From the NCBI GenBank assembly GCA_040882465.1, contig JBBEBG010000027.1, positions 1 to 64,000 on the forward strand: a stretch of 64,000 nucleotides of DNA, given 5' to 3'. Below are positions 60-32,035 of the stretch, one piece after another (within the stretch, counting starts at the first letter, position 1; every line of letters begins with the position of its first letter). The position numbers and the translations under genes were made by a program. The notes below the pieces were generated by a model. It was not told the origin of the DNA. It did not search any database and worked only from the letters and a program-made list of their open reading frames with translations. This DNA is from Gemmatimonadota bacterium (GTDB taxonomy: Bacteria > Gemmatimonadota > Gemmatimonadetes > Longimicrobiales > Gaopeijiaceae).

Positions 60-242
60 ATGAATGCCATGATCCACCCTGAGGCAAGATCGAGCGCGGG
101 CGCGTGCCAACGGTCCTTCGAGCCTGTGGCGGTCGCGCGGAACTCCGGTTACGGTGGACGAGAGCTTCGAAGGATCGGTTCGCTCGTGGTCGCCCACCAA
201 CAGCAGCTTCGCGAGGCATGGCATGAGTTCTTCGACACCTAA
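60..242 (+). pseudogene. DUF4160 protein remnant (locus 1)
   Basis: The last 37 or so residues (ARNSGYGGRELRRIGSL and onward) match the C-terminal half of the intact DUF4160 protein at 30865-31116 (ARNVGYGAYELRRIEQL). A DNA trace of the N-terminus (GTG CCA ACG GTC CTT at 104) survives in another frame. The middle of the gene is therefore deleted and the frame shifted. The 3' end still overlaps the DUF2442 start at 223 by 20 bp, the same arrangement as in the other two loci. Any product from 60 would lack the conserved N-terminal VPTVLR strand and the HVHV segment. I infer it is inactive. Confidence 0.6.
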
Positions 243-498
243 CCCGGGCGAGCGGGTGCGGGACGTGCGCGTGGAGGGCGGCCGCCTGTCCGTAGACCTC
301 GCCGACGGAAGGACGATCTCGGCACCGCTGGAATGGTATCCGCGACTGCTTCACGCCGCGCCGGAGGAGTTGGAGAAGTGGCAGCTGGCCGGGGCGGGTC
401 ACGTCATCCACTGGCCGGACCTCGACGAAGACATCAGCACGGAAGGTCTGCTGAGAGGCGCGCCGGCGCCCGGAGCACGGTCCGCAAGCGCCACCTGA
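223..498 (+). CDS. DUF2442 domain protein (locus 1)
   Basis: This 91-residue protein has the DUF2442 signature: a beta-rich segment (GGRLSVDLADGRTISAPLEW, residues about 18-37), then YPRLLHAAPEELEKWQL, and an aromatic/acidic end IHWPDLDEDIS typical of the family. DUF2442 proteins are small, of unknown biochemistry, and commonly sit directly downstream of DUF4160, as here. I chose the ATG at 223 because it gives a 20 bp overlap with the DUF4160 remnant, matching locus 3; an upstream ATG at 154 in the same frame is less likely. The last 10 or so residues (GARSASAT) lie inside the duplicated segment starting at 466, so the native C-terminus may have been replaced. It may be an antitoxin-like partner, but that is inference. 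Confidence 0.7.
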   Translation: MSSSTPNPGERVRDVRVEGGRLSVDLADGRTISAPLEWYPRLLHAAPEELEKWQLAGAGHVIHWPDLDEDISTEGLLRGAPAPGARSASAT

Positions 499-554
499 GG
501 CGCGCCCCAGCGACGACGCCATGATTCCACCGACGAGGCAGGATCGGGAGTATC

Positions 555-577
555 CACCATCGTCCCAGACCATGGTA
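555..577. promoter_or_regulatory. Degenerate Phd operator (copy A)
   Basis: This corresponds to the two tandem 10-bp palindromes of copy B (2363-2385). The second, GACCATGGTA at 568-577, is kept. The first has decayed to CACCATCGTC. It lies 11 bp before the truncated antitoxin ATG at 588. Confidence 0.5.
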
Positions 578-587
578 TGAATGGACC

Positions 588-716
588 ATGAAGGAGACTC
601 CGAAGGAAGGGTGGCTGGGCTCGATGTCGGATCGCGGTCGCGTCGTCGGAGACGTGATTTCCCCGGCCACGGACCCGTCGGAACGGGAGGCCCTCGGCCC
701 CGCGCTCCCGGCGTGA
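588..716 (+). pseudogene. Phd/YefM-type antitoxin with in-frame central deletion (copy A)
   Basis: The 42-residue product joins the first 7 residues of the intact copy (MKETPKE) directly to its C-terminal part (GWLGSMSDRGRVVGDVIS). Relative to 2396-2665, exactly 47 codons (residues 8-54) are lost. These contain the whole DNA-binding and dimerisation domain (the FKATCLAVLE and GEPVLITRFGEPVAE region). The frame stays open to the TGA that overlaps the toxin GTG. What remains is the tail that wraps the VapC partner in this family. It could still bind a toxin but not the operator; that is inference. Confidence 0.75.
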
Positions 717-916
717 GAGTCCTCCTCGACACGCACATCCGGATTTGGAGCCTTCTCGAACCCGACCGACTCTCGCACCGCGTGCGGAAGCTCCACGCCG
801 ATCCGGCGGACCGGTTCCTCTGCGCGACCGCCAGCGTCTACGATCTGCCGCTCGTGACTGCGGACGCACGGCTCCTCGGGTACGACGGAGGATTCGCGAC
901 GATCGCGAACGAGTGA
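713..916 (+). pseudogene. VapC-like PIN toxin with in-frame central deletion (copy A)
   Basis: It starts with GTG overlapping the antitoxin stop (GTGA). The 67-residue product keeps VRVLLDTHI (Asp6) and the C-terminal HADPADRF and VTADARLLGYDGG segments. Exactly 65 codons (residues 28-92 of copy B) are gone, including the catalytic Glu of WELLLL. Without that residue and the core helices a PIN nuclease is not expected to work. The frame has stayed open. Confidence 0.75.
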
Positions 917-985
917 ACGTGGGTCACGCCCAGGCGGTGCAGCACGAGCTCCGGTGCCTCCTCTGGCCCCGCCTGCCTAATCTCC

Positions 986-2182: not shown

Positions 2183-2362
2183 CCGAGTTTGGGTACCCAG
2201 GTTTCCTGTGAAGGATTCGCTGGGTTGGGACCTCTGTCAATTCCAGTGATCCCAGTCGAAATCATGCGCCCCCGCGCCCGGAGCAAAGTCCGCAAGCGCC
2301 ACCTGAGGCGCGCCCCAGGGGCGACGGCATGATTCCACCCACGAGGCAGAACTGAGAGTATT

Positions 2363-2385
2363 GACCATGGTCCCTGACCATGGTA
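2363..2385. promoter_or_regulatory. Tandem palindromic operator of the Phd-VapC operon
   Basis: Two 10-bp palindromic sites lie 13 bp apart: GACCATGGTC (perfect, 2363-2372) and GACCATGGTA (9/10, 2376-2385). They end 10 bp before the antitoxin ATG at 2396. Phd-type antitoxins repress their own operon through repeated short palindromes, so this is the likely autoregulatory site. Confidence 0.6.
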
Positions 2386-2395
2386 TGAATGGAAC

Positions 2396-2665
2396 ATGAA
2401 GGAGACTCCGAAGGAGACGATGGCCATCTCGAAGTTCAAGGCCACCTGCCTAGCTGTCTTGGAGCGGGTGGGGCGAACCGGCGAACCGGTCCTCATCACT
2501 CGCTTCGGCGAACCCGTCGCGGAGGTCGTCCCGCCTCGCAAGGAGCCGGTCGCCGGAGGGTGGCTTGGCTCGATGTCGGATCGCGGTCGCGTCGTCGGTG
2601 ACGTGATTTTGCCGGCAACGGACCCGTCGGAATGGGAGGCCCTCGGCCTCGCACCCCCGCGGTGA
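2396..2665 (+). CDS. Phd/YefM family antitoxin
   Basis: This 89-residue protein has the Phd/YefM N-terminal domain: ISKFKATCLAVLERV (residues about 11-25), then the hairpin TGEPVLITRFGEPVAEVVP (28-46). The C-terminal tail (GSMSDRGRVVGDVILPATD) would cover the toxin. It binds DNA as a dimer, represses the operon and neutralises VapC. The start is either ATG 2396 or ATG 2420 (MAISKFK), which has the better Shine-Dalgarno (AAGGAG just upstream). I keep 2396 because copy A begins identically. Its TGA overlaps the toxin GTG. Confidence 0.85.
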   Translation: MKETPKETMAISKFKATCLAVLERVGRTGEPVLITRFGEPVAEVVPPRKEPVAGGWLGSMSDRGRVVGDVILPATDPSEWEALGLAPPR

Positions 2666-3060
2666 GAGTCCTCCTCGATACCCACATCTGGATCTGGAGC
2701 CTCCTCGAACCCGACCGGCTCTCGGGCCGCGTGCGGAAGCTCCTCACCGATCCGGACACGGAGATGCGCCTCTCCCCGATCAGCACCTGGGAGCTCCTTC
2801 TCCTGATCGAGAAGGGTCGGGTCGAAGTGGAGGGCGAAGGGCACGAGTGGGTTTCCGAGGCGCTTCGGCGGGCTCCGCTCGTGGAGGCGCCGCTCACCCA
2901 CGAGGTCGCCCTCGAGAGCCGGCGCATCGAACTCCCCCACGCCGACCCCGCGGACCGGTTCCTCTGCGCGACGGCCCGCGTCTACGATCTGTCGCTCGTG
3001 ACTGCGGACGCGCGGCTCCTCGGGTACGACGGAGGATTCGCGACGATCACGAACGAGTGA
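2662..3060 (+). CDS. VapC-like PIN domain ribonuclease toxin
   Basis: This 132-residue PIN protein is intact. It shows VRVLLDTHIWIW (Asp6), STWELLLL (Glu44), HADPADRFL (Asp95/Asp98) and VTADARLL (Asp116), the acidic metal-binding set. The DTHIWIW start and LPHADPADRF motif are typical of the PIN toxins paired with Phd-type antitoxins. It starts with GTG in a 4-nt GTGA overlap, implying translational coupling and low initiation. The expected activity is Mg2+-dependent RNA cleavage. Confidence 0.88.
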   Translation: MRVLLDTHIWIWSLLEPDRLSGRVRKLLTDPDTEMRLSPISTWELLLLIEKGRVEVEGEGHEWVSEALRRAPLVEAPLTHEVALESRRIELPHADPADRFLCATARVYDLSLVTADARLLGYDGGFATITNE

Positions 3061-3082
3061 GGGTGGGTCACGCCGGACCGGG

Positions 3083-30410: not shown

Positions 30411-30767
30411 ATGGCCCTCCTCCGCGTCGAATCCTTCGCCATATCCTTGGACGGCTTCGGTGCCGGCCCGAACCAGACGCGCGAGGAGCCCCTCGGCGTG
30501 GGCGGCGAGGCCCTGCACGACTGGTTCATTTCCACCCGCACCTTCCAGCGCGCGAGCGGTGGCGACGGCGCCGACACGATCCGACAGTACGTCCAGGCCC
30601 CGCTCATCGACGAGCTGCACATCGCGATCGCGCCGATCCTTCTCGGCGACGGGGAATCGCTGTTCGAGGGAAACGACATGCTCGCCCTCGGCTACGAGGT
30701 GGCTCGGTTCGCCGCGTCGGAGTAGGTGACGCATGTGATCCTCCGGCGGAAGGGCGCCGAAGGCTGA
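30411..30767 (+). pseudogene. RibD/dihydrofolate-reductase-like protein with central deletion
   Basis: The N-terminus (LLRVESFAISLDGFGAGPNQ) and C-terminus (TIRQYVQAPLIDELHIAIAP, then ILLGDGESLFEGNDMLALGY) of the RibD C-terminal/DHFR-like family are joined in frame. About half of the usual 200+ residues is missing between HDWFISTRTFQR and ASGGDGADTIRQ. A TAG at 30723 also cuts off the last strand (THVILRRKGAEG, still readable to 30767). It is not expected to work. Confidence 0.75.
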
Positions 30768-30785
30768 CCCAGGAGCACGCGCAAT

Positions 30786-30864: not shown

Positions 30865-31116
30865 GTGCCAACCTTCGACGTGCCGACGGTTCTCCGGTCC
30901 GGGCCCGATCAGTCCTTTTTCGTCAGCCACGATATCCCCGAACCCCCTCACGTTCACGTCGATCGTGAGCGGATGTCCGCGAAGTCCTGGCTTGACGCAG
31001 TGGCGTCGGCACGAAACGTCGGTTACGGTGCATATGAGCTTCGGCGAATCGAACAATTGGTGGTCGAGCACAGAGCGCGGCTCTTGGAGGCCTGGAATGA
31101 CCCCTTCCTCGGTTAA
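30865..31116 (+). CDS. DUF4160 protein (locus 3)
   Basis: The 83-residue protein shows VPTVLRSGPDQSFFVSHDIP, EPPHVHVDRERMSAKSWLD (the conserved H-x-H), and GYGAYELRRIEQLVVEHRAR then LLEAWNDPF. This is full length for DUF4160. GTG 30865 follows GGAGG by 7 nt. It overlaps the downstream chimera by 20 bp, as in locus 1. Confidence 0.8.
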   Translation: MPTFDVPTVLRSGPDQSFFVSHDIPEPPHVHVDRERMSAKSWLDAVASARNVGYGAYELRRIEQLVVEHRARLLEAWNDPFLG

Positions 31117-31276
31117 CTCCGGCGAGCGTGTTGAGGCTGTGTACTTTTCGGACGACCGGCTCTCCGTGGACCTTGCCGATGGCCGAACCATCACGGTACC
31201 ACTGGATCGGGGTCGGATCGTTAGGGATGTGATTTCCCCCGCCGCGGATCCTTCGGAGTGGGAAGCGCTCCGCTAG
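31097..31276 (+). CDS. Chimeric protein: DUF2442 N-terminus fused to Phd antitoxin C-terminus
   Basis: Residues 1-37 (RLSVDLADGRTITVPLD) match DUF2442 of locus 1 (RLSVDLADGRTISAPLE). The rest (DRGRIVRDVISPAADPSEWE) matches the C-terminal tail of the Phd antitoxins (DRGRVVGDVILPATDPSEWE in 2396-2665). The join is in frame at Leu-Asp/Asp-Arg. Immediately after, GTGAAGGTCCTTCTCG (31289-31304) matches the first codons of the associated VapC, then homology ends. So a Phd-VapC operon once lay here and recombined into the DUF2442 gene. Whether the 59-residue product works is unknown. Confidence 0.75.
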   Translation: MTPSSVNSGERVEAVYFSDDRLSVDLADGRTITVPLDRGRIVRDVISPAADPSEWEALR

Positions 31277-31355
31277 GGCCGCCCGGACGTGAAGGTCCTT
31301 CTCGGTCCCCTCGGTAGCGCACGAAGCCCGTTGAATGCCGGGTCTCACCGCGTTA

Positions 31356-31394: not shown

Positions 31395-31637
31395 ATGCCG
31401 AACCTCACCATCAAGAACCTCGGGGAGCCCCTCCTCGTCCAACTCCGCGAAGCGGCGGAACGGAACCGCCGGAGCCTCAATAGCGAGGTGATCCGGCGGC
31501 TCGAGGCCTCCGTGGGAAGCGCACCGGCCGATGCGGCGGAGCTCCTCGCCCAGGCTCGGTCGATCCGCGAACGCGCGCGCCTTCCCTATCTCACGGACGA
31601 GGCGATCCGCGTGGCGCGGGACGAGGGGCGTCCTTGA
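31395..31637 (+). CDS. FitA-like RHH antitoxin
   Basis: The 80-residue protein has the FitA/Arc pattern: PNLTIKNLGEPLLVQLREAA then ERNRRSLNSEVIRRLEASVG, with a C-terminal toxin-binding segment (LPYLTDEAIRVARDEGRP). It binds DNA as a dimer and neutralises the PIN partner. Its stop overlaps the toxin TTG as TTGA. Confidence 0.85.
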   Translation: MPNLTIKNLGEPLLVQLREAAERNRRSLNSEVIRRLEASVGSAPADAAELLAQARSIRERARLPYLTDEAIRVARDEGRP

Positions 31638-32035
31638 TCGTCGCCGACGTGAACCTCATCGCCTATTTCTTCATCGAGGGCGAGCGAACGCGAGCGGCCG
31701 AAGCGGTAATCGAGCGGGACCCCGAGTGGGCCGCGCCCCTCCTCTGGAGAAGCGAGTGGCGAAACGTCCTCGCTGGCTATCTCCGAAGGGGTGAGCTCGA
31801 CGCCTCGGCGGCGATGGAGCTCATCGAGGCGGCCGAGGCGCTCCTTCGCGGGCGGGAACACCTCCCCGATGCGGGGCTCGTGATGGAGCTCGTCCTCGCA
31901 TCCTCGTGTTCCGCCTACGACTGTGAGTACGTGGCCCTCGCGGAGGCGCTCGGCCTTCCCCTCGTGACCGCGGACGCCCGCCTCCTCGCCGACTTTCCAG
32001 AGCGAGCCATCTCTCCCGAAGCGTTCACAGGCTGA
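31634..32035 (+). CDS. FitB/VapC-like PIN domain toxin
   Basis: The 133-residue protein has the four acidic positions: MIVADVNLIAYFFIEGERT (Asp5), LLWRSEWRNVLAGYL (Glu), SSCSAYDCEYVALAEALGLP (Asp), and LVTADARLLADFPE (Asp). It starts with TTG in a TTGA overlap. It is likely an RNase toxin with an intact catalytic set. Confidence 0.87.
   Translation: MIVADVNLIAYFFIEGERTRAAEAVIERDPEWAAPLLWRSEWRNVLAGYLRRGELDASAAMELIEAAEALLRGREHLPDAGLVMELVLASSCSAYDCEYVALAEALGLPLVTADARLLADFPERAISPEAFTG

Follow-up and report, generated by a model that had tools for sequence, protein, structure and literature searches.

A probable deletion scar joining neighbouring DUF2442 and phd antitoxin genes in a decaying toxin-antitoxin array of a Gemmatimonadota bacterium

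A short open reading frame encoding 59 amino acids, located at positions 31097-31276 on the forward strand of the window (the whole 64,000-nucleotide stretch of DNA analysed here), joins the start of a DUF2442 antitoxin gene to the tail of a Phd-type antitoxin gene, and we read it, with a probability of roughly 0.87, as the scar of one deletion between neighbouring antitoxin genes in a degenerating DUF4160-DUF2442-phd-vapC array. The homology of both halves, the collinearity with a sister array, the junction itself, the deletions in the sister copies and the neighbouring gene, and the absence of the fusion from the collections searched are direct observations, and the hybrid is most probably a pseudogene within a toxin-antitoxin (TA) island undergoing decay.

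DUF4160 and DUF2442 together form the DhiTA type II TA system, whose toxin activity has been shown in Dickeya dadantii and Escherichia coli (PMC8198452), and in the related PEM module of a Thermus plasmid no transformants were obtained on deleting the DUF2442 gene, whereas deletion of the DUF4160 gene yielded them (PMC12724237). The locus described here resembles both systems in having DUF4160 first and DUF2442 second, with a start/stop overlap between them, and differs from both in that its DUF2442 gene breaks off after codon 36 and runs on into a Phd tail. Among the loci retrieved, 63 of 63 DUF4160 matches are likewise accompanied by DUF2442. Its remaining parts, namely the tail and a start of vapC, derive from a Phd/YefM-VapC module, of which an intact example lies at 2396-3060, but at the hybrid locus almost the whole of vapC has been lost, together with the DNA-binding domain of Phd. 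The features of the locus, hereafter copy 3 of the array, and of the gene directly upstream are as follows.

30411-30770, forward strand: RibD_C/DHFR-like reductase gene with an in-frame loss of about 100 codons and a premature TAG at 30723 (alignment to the intact homologues of relatives)
30880-31116, forward strand: DUF4160 (DhiT-type toxin) open reading frame, full length (Pfam DUF4160, 49.1 bits)
31097-31204, forward strand: DUF2442 (DhiA-type antitoxin) gene, first 36 codons (Pfam match; identity to the DUF2442 of copy 1)
31204-31206, forward strand: deletion junction with the 3-bp microhomology GGA (overlap of two alignment blocks)
31205-31276, forward strand: C-terminal tail of a Phd-family antitoxin with its stop (82% amino acid identity to the tail encoded at 2579-2644)
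31289-31304, forward strand: vapC, first five codons (DNA alignment to 713-728 and 2662-2677)

The hybrid, whose start overlaps the stop of the full-length DUF4160 frame, translates as MTPSSVNSGERVEAVYFSDDRLSVDLADGRTITVPL followed by DRGRIVRDVISPAADPSEWEALR and a stop; residues 1-36 are the DUF2442 start and residues 37-59 the Phd-type tail, which bears out the in-frame join of the two that the preliminary description had proposed. Residues 13-37 match Pfam DUF2442 with an E-value of 8e-4 and 20 bits, which falls below the cut-off of 23.9 bits since the match spans just positions 2-27 of the 72-position profile, and this part shares 59% amino acid identity with the intact DUF2442 encoded at about 223-498. 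All 13 conserved positions of the DUF2442 N-terminal half are unchanged, while 23 of the 36 conserved positions of the family are absent, so that DUF4160 is not followed by a complete DUF2442 antitoxin. Residues 37-58, with 82% identity to the Phd tails encoded at 2579-2644 (within the phd gene 2396-2665) and 630-695, are a C-terminal tail of the Phd/YefM type, and the corresponding tblastn E-values (7e-9 and 9e-8) place this likeness far above chance; a search of the genome for the tail found it in three places only, all inside the window. The N-terminal Phd/YefM DNA-binding domain is missing, a Pfam scan of the hybrid giving no PhdYefM match. The first vapC codons that had been noted after the hybrid were likewise recovered by DNA alignment, which finds about five of them from 31289 to about 31304, where the homology to vapC stops. 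The span 30865-31310, originally assigned to the chimera as a whole, in fact comprises the DUF4160 frame, the chimera and this vapC stub.

That the second half might be a native DUF2442 C-terminus is ruled out by 85 native homologues that share a different conserved C-terminal half: after a common VPL they continue WYPRLL...GGGYGIHWPDIDEDLSTEGLLRGAPAP, with the consensus WYPRLLxATPxQRxNWxxxGGGYGIHWPDIDEDLSTEGLLRGAPAP, and nothing resembling DRGRIVRDVISPA occurs in this C-half consensus.

The origin of the hybrid becomes legible from the opening 3.1 kb of the window, which hold two further copies of the DUF4160-DUF2442-phd-vapC array in the same order and on the same strand, with the following parts.

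84-930, forward strand: array copy 1, with DUF4160 remnant, DUF2442, phd and vapC in that order
within copy 1: DUF4160 remnant with a frameshifted deletion
223-498, forward strand: DUF2442 of copy 1, intact
588-716, forward strand: phd of copy 1, with a 141-bp in-frame deletion
713-916, forward strand: vapC of copy 1, with a 195-bp in-frame deletion
2266-3074, forward strand: array copy 2, partial, with the 3' end of DUF2442, an intact phd (2396-2665) and an intact vapC (2662-3060)

These two arrays lie in tandem about 2 kb apart and are differently eroded; they share 89-93% identity in three alignment blocks, and the lengths of the phd and vapC deletions of copy 1 were measured against copy 2, which scores 30.9 bits for Pfam PhdYefM and 56.2 bits for PIN. 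The 195-bp deletion sits at a 14-bp imperfect direct repeat. Copy 3 aligns with copy 1 in two blocks, 31000-31206 with 126-332 (gap-free, 66% identity) and 31204-31304 with 629-728 (74% identity), which overlap by the GGA microhomology. The hybrid is thus collinear with copy 1 save for one gap joined at this microhomology, and for that reason we regard it as a deletion between neighbours. The gap amounts to 299 bp in copy 1 coordinates, but copy 1 is short of 141 bp of phd, so that about 440 bp would originally have been removed if the spacing was equal. On this reading everything between codon 36/37 of DUF2442 and the tail of phd, which follows it, was lost, and the ends joined at the 3-bp microhomology; preservation of the reading frame would be either accidental or a reflection of tolerance towards short in-frame scars. 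At this locus the matching VapC is down to five codons. The preliminary description had seen here a recombination between two unrelated TA-like families, an account that loses its footing once DUF2442 and phd-vapC are found to be array neighbours already (84-930, and in part 2266-3074) and one deletion explains the join: an exchange between distant families need not be invoked. An assembly chimera built from the genome's other copies is ruled out by the identity of the two halves to those copies, which is just 66-74%. The ancestral array was also sought in relatives, where none of the DUF2442 or phd loci read had a same-strand DUF2442 followed by phd-vapC; one locus (L104) carries phd-vapC on the strand opposite DUF2442.

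Decay marks the array and its neighbourhood, comparison with intact homologues revealing the deletion in the chimera, the vapC stub, the deletions of copy 1, and the deletion and stop of the RibD_C-type gene directly upstream of copy 3. Loss of TA loci through deletion and nonsense mutation is documented (PMC7167474), that source citing ccdO157 of E. coli as a case in which chromosomal copies are lost by deletion and nonsense mutation (Mine et al. 2009); the present deletion differs in that it joins two distinct adjacent TA modules while preserving the frame. This kind of event thus has precedents among chromosomal TA loci (PMC7167474), and what is unusual is its readable history: three copies of the array lie within one window, trimmed by different short deletions, and the intermediate steps of erosion can be read directly. 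Two points weigh against a pure scar. With no stop interrupting the hybrid and with the DUF2442 N-terminal half conserved, the scar may be recent, or a short product may have been kept, and the internal deletions found in copy 1, in copy 3 and in the RibD_C gene kept the frame in four of five cases against an expected one third, possibly a slight excess of in-frame deletions.

The DUF4160 gene, which had been described as intact, is so in length only. It still matches the Pfam family at the score given above, despite changes at 6 of 30 conserved positions relative to 56 homologues, Y-R to D-Q among them; the natives themselves show a mean of 1.8 such changes, and only 4 of the 56 show six or more. 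These changes are suggestive of erosion, not proof of it. Differences between copies 1 and 3 fall on the three codon positions as 13, 14 and 15 in DUF4160, which has been drifting in at least one of the two copies as under relaxed constraint, and as 4, 0 and 11 in the Phd tail, which was formerly under purifying selection. A start-like motif, VPTFDVPTVLR, is repeated at the head of the DUF4160 frame (30865-30894), and the homologues favour the second GTG, at 30880, as the more likely start over the alternative at 30865, since natives begin MPTVLR.

We infer that the hybrid is non-functional as a DhiA or Phd antitoxin, since it is without the C-terminal half of DUF2442 and without the DNA-binding and dimerisation domain of Phd. 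The preliminary description had instead envisaged a DUF4160 system whose partner has exchanged its tail. In such a system the recombined protein would still control DUF4160, and in its favour the DUF4160 frame is full length and its stop overlaps the start of the chimera, an arrangement shared with native pairs. We consider this highly improbable, given that the missing 23 of 36 conserved positions would include, judging from a model of the intact DUF2442 paralogue, two helices, the three strands of the C-terminal half and the final helix, that the antitoxin matters in Thermus, where no transformants arise without DUF2442 (PMC12724237), that DUF4160 is itself eroded, that the sister copies and the adjacent upstream gene carry the same kind of deletion, and that the fusion was found nowhere else searched. 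Somewhat less improbable, but still very unlikely, is a mini-antitoxin in which the Phd tail, borne on a stable DUF2442 beta-sheet, binds the intact VapC of 2662-3060 as an extra neutraliser. Antitoxins in general bind their toxins through C-terminal segments (PMC4803016), and for that reason some activity of the hybrid tail against VapC is possible in principle, but the Phd N-domain is absent; the tail is 82% identical to the cognate one, and an AlphaFold model of the hybrid folded alone, which as a single-sequence model is weak evidence, predicts a three-stranded sheet of fair confidence (pLDDT 84-86). The same model leaves the tail at low confidence (pLDDT 48-54), neither the WLGSM segment that would precede the tail nor the N-domain for dimerisation is present, VapC 2662 is already paired with its own intact Phd, and no conservation of the fusion was found among relatives, the class or genome_contigs. 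A search of solved structures yielded a weak DUF2442 match (3k8r) and nothing useful for Phd or DUF4160. We likewise give only a slim chance to a stable 59-residue hybrid that still neutralises VapC or the DUF4160 toxin, which would be a new antitoxin arising in one step from an inter-module deletion; if true, it would bear on how antitoxins gain new partners.

A further alternative is compatible with the deletion origin and rivals just the claim that the toxin is dead. An active DUF4160 in copy 3 would need some other antitoxin to restrain it, the prime candidate for neutralisation in trans being the intact orphan DUF2442 encoded at 223-498. Copy 1 has kept DUF2442 and lost DUF4160, copy 3 has kept DUF4160 and lost DUF2442, and both survivors come from the same array type, their genes (223-498 and 30880-31116) being complementary orphans about 30 kb apart. 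Copies 1 and 3 are, on the other hand, only about 66% identical in DNA, and with radical changes at its conserved positions DUF4160 could be simply dead. We hold such a split pair to be unlikely, and a dead copy 3 toxin appears more likely given the erosion of DUF4160, which in any case is probably weakened.

With the deletion scar as the preferred reading, we turn to the distribution of the fusion. No convincing match over both halves of the hybrid protein was obtained in 196 relatives or in 394 genomes of the class, none over both halves in the genome_contigs collection (84,980 species), where among the matches listed 80 loci all end at residue 36, and none covering both halves in the plasmid collection or among viral contigs; these searches are seed-dependent and absence was judged among the matches listed, so that the fusion is to be called not found rather than proven absent. 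A recurring fusion family is accordingly rejected for the collections searched. One match, over residues 2-56, proved to be an ordinary DUF2442 protein (G006, L011), and the class search gave one weak match to residues 1-57 (G382, 38% identity, E-value 9e-4). More generally, caution is due when two families are seen fused in frame in just one genome, as such a fusion may be a deletion scar.

Two side observations concern other antitoxin genes. In many relatives (L018-L022, L025-L034) a tail of the form GEIVGDIVSPATDPSxWxALR lies upstream of VapC on a FitA/RHH-like N-domain, named by eye, while the same tail sits on a Phd N-domain in this genome, a picture of modular antitoxin tails. Directly downstream of the scar, at 31395-32035, lies an apparently intact pair of a FitA-like antitoxin and a PIN toxin.
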